Source: Bifidobacterium vansinderenii | GTDB taxonomy: Bacteria > Actinomycetota > Actinomycetes > Actinomycetales > Bifidobacteriaceae | Length of the DNA: 56,576 nucleotides | Assembly (NCBI RefSeq): GCF_002234915.1 | Contig: NZ_NEWD01000029.1 | Location: 1,762 to 58,337 of the forward strand | Direction: 5' to 3' | Part shown: piece by piece, positions 22,063 through 53,160 of the stretch | Layout: each line of letters begins with the position of its first letter | Position numbering within the stretch: position 1 is the first letter of the stretch | Notes under the pieces: generated by a model | What the model was told of the DNA's origin: nothing | The model's database searches: none | The model's input: only the letters and a program-made list of their open reading frames with translations | Position numbers and translations under genes: made by a program

Positions 22063-22225
22063 GGTTCTACGTCGTGGGATGGTGAAAATCGGGACGGCGA
22101 GAGCTGGAGGCGGCCGGTGTGATGCAGATCGTGACGATGGGAATGAGCCAAATGGTGTCGAACGGTGTCGAAAAGTCGGACTGAAGTTAGCGTGTCGTAA
22201 GTTTCGTCATGATATATTATTGCTT

Positions 22226-22239
22226 ACCGACCGGTTGGT
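22226..22239. promoter_or_regulatory. Candidate TetR2 operator (GH3 side)
   Basis: ACCGACCGGTTGGT, one mismatch from ACCGA-N4-TCGGT. It directly follows a -10-like TATTAT at 22215-22220, so binding would block the GH3 promoter. Confidence 0.5.
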
Positions 22240-22359
22240 TCAAGATTTCGTCGTCGAGATCGGAATCAGCCAGGGGTCCACGTTTACCAACAAACCAACG
22301 CAACCAATGCATCCACGACGGCGGCATGGCGGCCGACGTCAGACAGGAAACGAGGCACA

Positions 22360-24635
22360 ATGAGCGAGAGCACCTACCCCAGCGTCAACGACCTGACCCT
22401 CGAGGAGAAGGCCAGCCTGACTTCCGGTGGCGACGCCTGGCCAGCCTGACTTCCGGTGGCGACGCCTGGCATCTGCAGGGCGTTGAGCACAAGGGCATCC
22501 CCGGTTACATGATCACCGACGGCCCCCACGGACTGCGCAAGGCCAACGCCTCCAGCACCGGCGAGACCGACCTCAACGATTCCGTGCCCGCCACCTGCTT
22601 CCCGCCGGCGGCCGGCCTGTCGAGCGCATGGAACCCGGATCTGGCCTTCCAGGTGGGCGAGGCCATGGGCGAGGAGTGCATTCAGGAGAAGGTGGCCGTC
22701 ATCCTCGGCCCCGGCGTGAACATCAAGCGCAACCCGCTGGGCGGCCGCTGCTTCGAGTACTGGTCCGAGGACCCGTTCCTCGCCGGCCATGAGGCCGCCG
22801 GCCTGGTCAAGGGCGTGCAGTCCAAGGGCGTGGGCACCTCCCTCAAGCACTTCGCCGTGAACAACCAGGAGACCGACCGTCTGCGCGTCTCCGCCAACGT
22901 CTCCCAGCGTGCGCTGCGCGAGATCTACTTCCCGGCCTTCGAGCACATCGTCAAGGACGCTCAGCCGTGGACCATCATGTGCTCCTACAACAAGATCAAC
23001 GGCGTGCACTCCGCCCAGAACCACTGGCTGCTCACCGACGTGCTGCGCAACGAGTGGGGCTTCAAGGGCATTGTGATGTCCGACTGGGGTGCCGACCACG
23101 ACCGCGTCGCCTCCCTGAACGCCGGCCTGAACCTGGAGATGCCGCCGAGCTACACCGACGACCAGATCGTGTACGCCGCGCGCGACGGCCGCATCCAGCC
23201 CGAACAGCTCGACCGCATGGCCCAGGGCATGATCGACCTGGTGAACAAGTCCCGCGCCGCCATGAGCATCGACGGCTACCGCTTCGACGTGGACGCCCAC
23301 GACGAGGTGGCCCGTCAGGCCGCCGTGGAGTCCATCGTGCTGCTGAAGAACGACGACGCCGTGCTGCCCGTGGCTGCCGACGCCAAGGTCGCCGTGATCG
23401 GCGAGTTCGCACGCTCCCTGCGCTACCAGGGCGGCGGCTCCTCGCACATCACCCCCACCAAGATGACCGGCTTCCTCGACACTCTCAAGGACCGTGGCAT
23501 CGACGCCGCCTTCGCCCCCGGCTTCACCTTCGCCGATGAGCCGCAGGATCCGGCCCTGACCGCCGAGGCTGTGGAGACCGCCAAGGGCGCCGACGTGGTG
23601 CTGCTGTTCCTCGGTCTGCCCGAGGCGGCCGAGTCCGAGGGCTTCGACCGCGAGACCCTCGACATCCCCGCCAAGCAGGTGGAGCTGCTCAAGGAGGTGT
23701 CCGCCGCGAACAAGAACGTCGTGGTGGTGCTGTCCAACGGCTCCGTCGTCTCCGTGGCTCCGTGGCGCGACCACGCCAAGGGCATCCTTGAGACCTGGCT
23801 GCTCGGCCAGTGCGGCGGTCCGGCCATGGCCGACGTGATCTTCGGCGTGCAGAGCCCGTCCGGCAAACTGTCCCAGACCATTCCGATGAACATCCTCGAC
23901 GATCCGTCCATGCTCAACTGGCCCGGCGAGGAGGGTCACGTGGACTACGGTGAGGGCGTGTTCGTCGGCTACCGCTACTACGACACCTACGGCAAGGAGG
24001 TCGCCTACCCGTTCGGCTACGGCCTGAGCTACGCGAGCTTCGAGATCTCTGACGTGACCGTGGCCAAGACCGGCGCCAACACCGCGTCCGTGACCGCCAC
24101 CGTGACCAACACGTCCGACGTGGACGGCGCCGAGGTCGTGCAGGTGTACGTCGCGCCGGGCAAGGCCGACGTGGCCCGTCCGAAGCACGAGCTCAAGGGC
24201 TTCGTCAAGGTGTTCCTTGCCGCCGGCGAATCCAAGACCGTCACCGTTGACCTCGACGAGCGTGCGTTCGCCTACTGGTCCGAGAAGTTCAACGACTGGC
24301 ACGTGGAGTCCGGCGAGTACACGGTCGAGGTGGGCGTGAGCTCCCGTGACATCGTCGCCACTGGCGTGGTTGATCTCGACGGCGACGGCAAGACCGCGCC
24401 GCTGACCGAATGGTCCACCTTCGGCGAGTGGAAGGCCGACCCGGTCGGCTCCAAGATCGTGGCCGACCTGGTCGCCAAGGCCGACGCCGGTGAGCTTCCC
24501 AAGCTGCCGCAGAACGACATGATGGACATGTTCCTCAACTCCATGCCGATCAACAGCCTCACCACGCTGCTCGGCGAGCCCGGCAAGCAGACCACCGCCT
24601 TCCTGCTCGACGAGTACGCCAAAGTCACCGCCTGA
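22360..24635 (+). pseudogene. GH3 beta-glucosidase, frame broken by a 29-bp tandem duplication
   Basis: The expected start ATG at 22360 (SD GGAAACGAGG) reads MSESTYPSVNDLTLEEKASL..GGDAW, then hits TGA at 22447-22449. The remaining gene, open to 24635, is in another frame and resumes at LTSGGDAWHLQGVEHKGIPGY. The cause is a perfect 29-bp duplication. Removing one copy gives a normal 748-aa GH3 enzyme: nucleophile Asp232 in IVMSDWGAD, GH3 C-terminal domain, and a fibronectin-III-like end. A reading from ATG 22326 stays open across the junction with an unrelated N-terminus but lacks a good SD. Family role: exo-beta-glucosidase. It may be inactive, phase-variable or an assembly error. Confidence 0.85.
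22410..22467 (+). repeat. 29-bp tandem duplication inside the GH3 gene
   Basis: Unit 22410-22438 is repeated exactly at 22439-22467. The trinucleotide GGC borders both units and recurs at 22468-22470, so the endpoints share microhomology. The length is 2 modulo 3, which shifts the frame. Confidence 0.95.
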
Positions 24636-45159: not shown

Positions 45160-46658
45160 CTACCTGACGAGTCCGTCCGGCCCGACGAACGGTGATCCGT
45201 CGTCGTGTGTGGCGTCGCCGCCGGCACGATCCGTGGAGGCCGTGGTACCGCCTTCGCCGTGTCCATGACCGTGTCCGTCCTTCTCGCCGCCGTTGCCATT
45301 ACCGGCGCCATGGCCGTCATCATTGCCGTCGGCGTCGCTGCGTTGCACCTCGATCGTCTGAATACGACGACCGTCCACTTCGGTGATGACCATGTCGTAT
45401 CCGTCGTCGGAGTGCAGCACGGCGCCCACCTTGCCCATTTCGCCGGTCTTCGCGAGGAAGTATCCGGCCACGGTCTCGTACGGGCCGTCCTCGAGCTCGA
45501 TGCCGGTGAGCTCGTCGAAGTCCTCGATCGTCATGCCGCCGTCAATGCGCGCCACGCCGCCCACGAACGCCGAACCGGGCTTCTTGCCGCCGGCCTCCTC
45601 GGGCAGATCGTATTCGTCGCGGATGTCGCCCACGAGCTCCTCGGTCATGTCCTCCAGCGTCACGATGCCGTCGGTGCCGCCGTATTCGTCGATCACGATG
45701 GCCAGGTGGATGCCACGTTTGCGCAGCAGCGACAGGCTGGGCAGCAGTTTCGACGTGCCGGGCAGTGAGATGCCCTCGCGCGTCACGTCGGCCACGGTCT
45801 TCGCCTCCTTGTTGCGCACGTCGAGCAGATCGCGCACGTGCACGAAGCCGAGTACGTCGTCGAAGTCCTTGCCGATCACCGGGTATCGCGAGTACGGCAT
45901 GTCGTGCACGAAGTCGGCGGCCTTGTCGAGTACGGCATGTCGTGCACGAAGTCGGCGGCCTTGTCGAGCGGCATGTCGCCGTCGATGAACACGACGTCGG
46001 CGCGCGGACGCATGACCTCCGCCACGATCGTCTCGGACGCGTCGAACACGTCGTCGAGGATCACACGCTCGTCCTTGCTCAGGTTCGTGTTCGACGACAC
46101 GAGCACGCGCAGCTCGTCGTCGGACACTTCGGATTCGGTTTCGTTCGGATCAAAGCCGAGCAGACGCACGATGCCGTTCGTGTTCTTGCCGATCAGCCAG
46201 ATGATCGGACGGCAGATCGTGGCGAACACGTCGATCGCGGGGACCACGGCGCGGGCGATCGCCTCGGTCTTCTGCATGGCGATGCGCTTGGGCACCATTT
46301 CCGAGATGACGATCGAGCAGTAGGAGATGACGAGCGTCAGGCCGATCGTGATGAGCGGATTGGCTACGAACGTGGGTACGCCCCAGCTTTCGACCAGCGG
46401 GATCAGGAACGGCGCGATGGACGATGCGCCGAACGATGCCGAAAGAAAACCGGACAGCGTGACGCCGATCTGCACGGTGGATAGGAACGTATTCGGGTCG
46501 CGGGCGATCTTCGCCACGCGGGCGCCTCGGGCATCCTCCTGCTCCATCTGTTCGATCTGCGAGCCGCGCAGACTCACCAGCGCGAGCTCGGTGCCGGAGA
46601 ACATGGCGCCGATGACCAGAAAGACGAAAATCAGTAGGATATTCAAACCAAGTGACAT
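45160..46658 (-). pseudogene. CNNM/CorC-type CBS membrane protein, frame broken by a 38-bp tandem duplication
   Basis: The N-terminal part (46658 downwards) has DUF21 membrane segments (MSLGLNILLIFVFLVIGAMFSGTE, QIGVTLSGFLSASFG, SEMVPKRIAMQ) and the start of a CBS pair. It runs into TRPPTSCTTCRTRDTR and stops near 45876. The C-terminal part (MPYSRYPVIGKDFDDVLGFVHVRDLL..., VIDEYGGTDGIVTLEDMTEELVGDI) has CBS and CorC_HlyC domains and ends in a His/Gly-rich tail (GHGHGHGEGG). Deleting one 38-bp copy joins both parts into one normal protein. Family members are linked to Mg2+ or Co2+ homeostasis. It may be inactive, split, phase-variable or an assembly error. Confidence 0.85.
45889..45964. repeat. 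38-bp tandem duplication inside the CNNM gene
   Basis: Unit 45889-45926 is repeated exactly at 45927-45964. CGAG begins each unit and recurs at 45965-45968, so the endpoints share 4-nt microhomology. The length is 2 modulo 3. Confidence 0.95.
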
Positions 46659-52443: not shown

Positions 52444-52860
52444 AAATCATTGGATAACGGAGTGTCGTCTGCGTTGCGGAAGACTCGACGTACCTTCGTA
52501 CGCCTTCGTCTTCCGCGCCTTGACGACACACGCGTTATCCAATGATTTTGGAGTGAACGGGATGGGGCATCATCCGCGTTGCTCCTCAGTCGACGTACCT
52601 TCGTACGCCTTCCTTCGGTGCGCCTTGGCGACGCACGCATCATGTGAATAATTCGGGCTGGACGGTGTCATCCGCGTTGCTGCGGACTTCGACGTACCTT
52701 TGTACGCCTTCGCCTTCCGCGCCTTGACGACACACGCGTTATCCAATGATTTTGGAGTGAACGGGATGGAGCGTCGCCTGCGTTGCTCCTCAGTCGACGT
52801 ACCTTCGTACGCCTTCCTTCGGTGCGCCTTGGCGGCGCACGCATCATGTGAATAATTCGG
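52443..52860. repeat. Tandem array of large palindromic elements, 204-bp period
   Basis: Four copies of CGACGTACCTTCGTACGCC (third with T for C) at 52486, 52591, 52690 and 52795, alternating between two flank types, so the true period is 204 bp. The first element (52443-52549) folds as nested stems: a 17-bp outer stem (core ATCATTGGATAACG), GTGTCGTC/GACGACAC and GCGGAAGAC/GTCTTCCGC. No gene is evident. Confidence 0.85.
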
Positions 52861-52902
52861 GCTAGGCGGGGTGGCGCATCCGCGGTTGGGTCATTTCTCT
52901 CC

Positions 52903-52955: not shown

Positions 52956-53034
52956 GCAGTCATACGCAACTGCTCCCCTTTCACCGCGCACCTCTGCGTG
53001 GTTTCCAGCAACTTAGACACGCGTGCACCCCAAC

Positions 53035-53160
53035 TTGGTAGTCCAAACCCAACTTGGTAGTCCAAACGCGACGTTCCTCCCACCTTGTTAGGGGTCACAC
53101 CGTCCCGTTTCGACTACCAAATTCGTTTCGACTACCAAAATGTCACGTCTCGACTACCAA
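53035..53160. repeat. Five TTGGTAGTC motifs (two direct, three inverted)
   Basis: TTGGTAGTC at 53035 and 53054 (19-bp spacing, in CCCAACTTGGTAGTCCAAAC); GACTACCAA at 53112, 53130 and 53152. The two groups can pair. They lie downstream of the aldo/keto reductase stop, in a gap without genes. Confidence 0.7.

Follow-up and report, generated by a model that had tools for sequence, protein, structure and literature searches.

Two described systems come closest to the locus analyzed here. In P. aeruginosa, a pilD gene carrying a 12-bp duplication regained function, whereas a codon-modified form did not, and this reversion is ascribed to slippage as the probable route (PMC13170266). That case resembles ours in that a short coding segment is perfectly duplicated head to tail, with a change in function, and the extra pilD copy was lost precisely; it differs in that the pilD unit is 12 bp long, in frame and phage-selected, with reversion shown, whereas the unit described here is 29 bp long and breaks the frame. 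In Bifidobacterium breve, the expression of sortase pili is switched ON and OFF by replication slippage at an intragenic G-tract (PMC9187656). The pili share with our locus the genus and a slippage-type change in length predicted to set expression; they differ in using a homopolymer whose plasticity has been measured and which has equivalents in various other bifidobacteria, whereas the locus here carries a one-off 29-bp unit that is absent from the relatives examined. Among the titles and abstract openings listed by literature searches, none names this GH3 locus, and a term search of the main text of PMC11868660 found no mention of a tandem repeat, a duplication or Bifidobacterium. The available part of PMC10688797 concerns GH36 and GH39 enzymes, with no bearing on this GH3 gene.

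The window analyzed here is a stretch of 56,576 bases (bases 1762–58337 of the 58,337-base contig C22) from a genome of 3,111,005 bases in 68 contigs. On its forward strand, two copies of a 29-bp unit lie head to tail at 22410–22438 and 22439–22467, beginning 50 bp past an ATG at 22360. TRF and an exact scan agree on a period of 29 and 100% identity over a match run of 22410–22470, which overshoots two units by three bases (GGC), and the second copy is an insertion relative to the corresponding loci of B. callimiconis (L021) and B. tissieri (L022). Perfect repeats whose period is at least 10 numbered only three in an exact scan of the window at periods 9–400, namely those of 19, 29 and 38 bp; the 29-bp repeat is not a chance occurrence. 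Because 29 is not divisible by 3, the frame from the conserved start stops early: translation from ATG 22360 yields 29 residues (MSESTYPSVNDLTLEEKASLTSGGDAWPA) followed by TGA at 22447–22449, giving a truncated frame at 22360–22449. The GH3 body (22440–24635, 731 codons plus the stop) lies intact in a different frame, which is open from 22209 to 24635. The original prediction had described perfect head-to-tail copies with GGC microhomology at their endpoints and a start placed out of frame with the body, all of which our scans and translation confirm, and its restored product of 748 residues matches the sister protein of 17 + 731 residues. In our assessment, the arrangement probably arose recently and spontaneously in the sequenced lineage or clone, as a short tandem duplication mediated by microhomology, with the GH3 arabinopyranosidase predicted to be off. 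Short tandem duplication is an ordinary kind of event.

The affected gene had been called a beta-glucosidase, a name that the family models do not uphold. The body scores 1381.4 bits against the NCBIfam model NF041610 (cutoff 1300; model positions 9–737 of 738), while the next-best model, a beta-glucosidase, reaches only 439 bits (cutoff 1300). The family model therefore predicts that the gene encodes an exo-alpha-(1->6)-L-arabinopyranosidase and not a beta-glucosidase. Pfam assigns GH3 N, GH3 C and Fn3-like domains to the body, and the best solved relative, 5wab (titled putative beta-glucosidase), aligns over 730 of the 731 residues. The body thus resembles the NF041610 enzymes and 5wab in score and alignment; the difference is that, in this genome, the 17 residues that should precede the body sit in another frame. 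Two TetR regulators, an MFS transporter (Pfam) and a second GH3 gene neighbor it. A GH3 paralogue on contig C45 (L013) shares 77% DNA identity across the matched part and is open for about 700 codons, up to the edge of the stretch examined, so the function of the arabinopyranosidase may be backed up. A frame that looks like an MFS transporter, named by appearance, adjoins this paralogue.

To place the duplication in an evolutionary context, we took the best 80 of the 170 loci at which a relative was found and checked each for a start in frame with the body and for any perfect tandem repeat of at least 10 bp, a scan that diverged or imperfect repeats escape. The 29-bp repeat occurred in none of these 80 loci, and unrelated 12-bp repeats occurred in two (within the gene in L035 and upstream of the start in L067). 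An ATG, GTG or TTG lies in frame upstream of the body in 79 of the 80. In an alignment of 12 relatives, of which eight were readable (L005, L011, L012 and L013 were on the wrong strand and uninformative), the extra 29 bases were found in none of those eight and in the window alone. The sister species B. callimiconis carries a single copy of the unit, as does B. tissieri, and in BLAST comparisons with both the sole indel in the GH3 coding sequence is the 29-bp insertion of the window. The single-copy frame of L021 has the same start and N-terminus as the 22360 frame and continues directly into the body. Since relatives keep this frame, comparison indicates that 22360 is the ancestral, conserved start. 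The one locus among the 80 without an in-frame start, L094 (B. pullorum subsp. saeculare An836, around 3001), is a decayed GH3 copy: a smaller and different change disrupts its frame in this same short run of codons, and the copy is broken again further on. We considered whether the site might be a mutation hotspot; as L094 breaks in the same codons without a duplication, we took the correspondence to be a coincidence.

Ribosome-binding signals single out the same start. A GAGG core at 22352–22355 precedes 22360, and the duplex of the upstream stretch with a 16S tail has an energy of -9.7 kcal/mol, a value that only 2.8% of 3000 random window positions equal or exceed in strength. The alternative ATG at 22326–22328 was rightly described as in frame with the body, and a second ATG at 22209 shares that frame; both give -2.1 kcal/mol, at least matched by 67% of random positions in the case of 22326, and neither has a ribosome-binding site. 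Thus 22360, which the original prediction regarded as the proper start, is supported both by the frame of the relatives and by the best ribosome-binding site among the starts tested, whereas an upstream start as the normal state, which had been raised as an objection, was rejected: the frame of 22360 is retained in relatives, and no ribosome-binding site precedes 22326.

A separate question is whether the two-copy allele is still expressed, either from 22326 or 22209 or by a restart at the CTG of CTGA (22446–22449). Besides the shared frame of both ATGs, this reading draws on the overlap of the TGA at 22447 with a body-frame CTG, whose upstream stretch pairs moderately with the 16S tail at -6.7 kcal/mol (14% of random positions are as strong), and on the presence of the 22326 ATG in the sister B. 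callimiconis. UGA stops translation weakly when the next base is C; CTG starts, however, are rare. In L021 a single in-frame start precedes the body, 17 codons ahead of it, and hence the 22326 ATG is not the start of the sister gene; in B. tissieri (L003) this ATG is replaced by ATT. Furthermore, an upstream start or a CTG restart would replace or lose the LTLEEK segment of the relatives. We accordingly regard expression by these routes as highly improbable.

The duplication had also been proposed to act as a phase switch, in which an evolved and maintained flipping of copy number between one and two would turn the enzyme on and off within the population. The repeat is perfect and close to the start, and the region near the start is the classical place for phase-switch repeats. 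Precedent exists in the sources introduced above, both for the renewed loss of a short coding duplication (PMC13170266) and for slippage switching within the genus at the B. breve pilus G-tract (PMC9187656). Set against this, a contingency locus keeps its tract across relatives with varying copy number, and the repeat is present in 0 of the best 80 of 170 related loci. There is no multi-unit tract, and the single-copy state offers just a 3-bp match on which to slip. In addition, the same window holds, 23 kb from the GH3 gene, a like lesion in an unrelated gene of the CNNM/CorC kind, which points to accident. The phase-switch reading is therefore not borne out, and we hold it to be the least probable of the explanations considered.

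The lesion in question, absent from the original prediction, is a 38-bp perfect tandem duplication on the reverse strand, detected by exact scan, with copies at 45889–45926 and 45927–45964 and a 4-bp microhomology extending the match to 45968. It frameshifts a CNNM/CBS/CorC_HlyC gene at 45160–46658 (reverse strand), splitting it into open reading frames at 45876–46658 and 45160–45909; Pfam places CNNM on one piece and CBS and CorC_HlyC on the other. All eight of the other genomes searched match the region, with a matched stretch 38 bases shorter than that of the window. In BLAST comparisons, the extra 38 bp appear as one insertion against L202 and L136 (both from G001, B. callimiconis) and as a split one of 8 + 30 against L203 (G008, B. 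tissieri). In the alignment of this region, the rows for L202 and L209 had the wrong orientation, so that L202 was read by BLAST and L209 by match length only.

The remainder of the GH3 gene, described in the original prediction as undamaged, is so: the body is open and the 29-bp insertion is the only indel in the coding region relative to L021. Against B. callimiconis, the body is identical at 2130 of 2193 bases and 721 of 731 residues (dN 0.006, dS 0.108). With B. tissieri as the outgroup, codon changes on the window branch divide into 21 synonymous and 3 nonsynonymous, those on the sister branch likewise into 21 and 3, and the branch codon changes thus give no sign of relaxed constraint on the GH3 body of the window. 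Because constraint has been equal on the two branches, with no long period without it, the lesion appears to be recent, that is, young on the scale of the divergence of the sisters, and the intact body supports the same conclusion, in agreement with the age originally proposed.

To gauge how common such lesions are, we surveyed 100 further stretches of the same genome (1,528,719 bp, about half of it) for perfect repeats inside the stretches. Fourteen had a period of at least 15 and four a period of at least 20. Only one with a period of at least 15 was not divisible by 3, namely a 20-bp unit present three times without mismatch at L114:17835–17894, and no other perfect duplication of at least 25 bp with a length not divisible by 3 was present in these 1,528,719 bp. 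Among the controls, repeats with a period of at least 15 not divisible by 3 numbered two in G001 (20 stretches, 346,515 bp) and six in G008 (20 stretches, 372,500 bp); the longest such repeat across the survey of this genome and both controls was 23 bp. Short frame-breaking repeats are thus not rare in the control genomes, while the 29-/38-bp class was seen nowhere else surveyed. Two lesions of this class within 56.6 kb form an unusual cluster that random mutation would rarely give: with one lesion in place, a second in the same window has a chance of about 56.6/1585 = 0.036, a simple proportion calculated after the fact.

This clustering bears on whether the duplications exist in the cells at all. 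In an assembly artefact, the ends of pieces overlapping by 29 (and 38) bases would have been joined unmerged, and the cells would hold one copy. The genome is a draft of 68 contigs, and two perfect frame-breaking duplications on a single contig, with none of the class in the 100 other stretches, could signal a local fault; one of the two, moreover, falls in a gene matched in all eight other genomes searched. The junctions weigh against this explanation. The chance that a random join shows an excess match is 0.051 for at least 3 bp and 0.016 for at least 4 bp, so that the joint probability of both microhomologies at unmerged overlaps is about 0.0008 (assuming equal base frequencies, and slightly low for G+C-rich DNA). 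The 3- and 4-bp microhomologies at both junctions consequently favor slippage over a random mis-join or an unmerged overlap. Faults of this kind would also be expected at other joins, and none was found in the sampled half of the genome. Counting against slippage, along with the clustering, three two-copy duplications of 20–23 bp in G008 (B. tissieri) have 0–1 bp of microhomology, which therefore does not characterize duplications in these genomes generally. A genome-wide assembly fault was rejected because it would have given many duplications and L114 alone was recovered in the 100 stretches surveyed (period of at least 15, not a multiple of 3); we retained a fault of this kind as a local possibility. 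Overall, we favor mutation and consider an artefact rather unlikely, if deserving of real weight.

For the favored mutational origin, the features of a slippage duplication are in place: perfect copies, a junction with microhomology, and relatives that carry the unit once. We infer that replication in living cells slipped between a pair of GGC trinucleotides lying 29 bp from each other, leading to the stretch being copied twice, and that the resulting 29-bp shift would end translation from the conserved start after 29 residues and abolish arabinopyranosidase activity. A second event of like kind, with a 38-bp unit and 4-bp microhomology, would have broken the CNNM/CorC gene 23 kb away. Reversion would occur when one copy is deleted, at a low frequency, and literature precedent makes such reversibility plausible. 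A hairpin-driven form of slippage was rejected: folded as two-copy DNA, neither the 29-bp nor the 38-bp site gave a hairpin signal, and folding was no stronger than that of shuffled sequences (z from -0.52 to 1.14). The duplications verified in the available part of PMC3411829 have microhomologies of at least 11 bp, and so those cases lend no direct support to 3-bp events.

A further, improbable reading combines a locally raised rate of microhomology-mediated duplication with a population mixed for one and two copies at both the arabinopyranosidase and the CNNM/CorC gene, which would create unprogrammed reversible on/off alleles of a glycan-use gene. Should the duplication be real and heterogeneous, the locus would offer a simple system for measuring the formation and reversion rates of 29–38 bp duplications in a gut commensal; should it be an assembly fault, both broken genes of the window would be false pseudogenes. 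There is also a risk to annotation, as a pipeline may call the GH3 gene a pseudogene or start it at the false upstream ATG, and the ability of the strain to release arabinopyranose with this enzyme would then be misjudged.

The third perfect repeat of the window, at 53029–53067, consists of two perfect 19-bp repeats (CCCAACTTGGTAGTCCAAA), after which several motifs of the CGACTACCAAA type run in the reverse orientation as far as 53170; the segment 53029–53170 looks like an operator-like array. Just before it, at 52462–52863, lie two copies of a 204-bp unit with a 92% match and shorter inner repeats.
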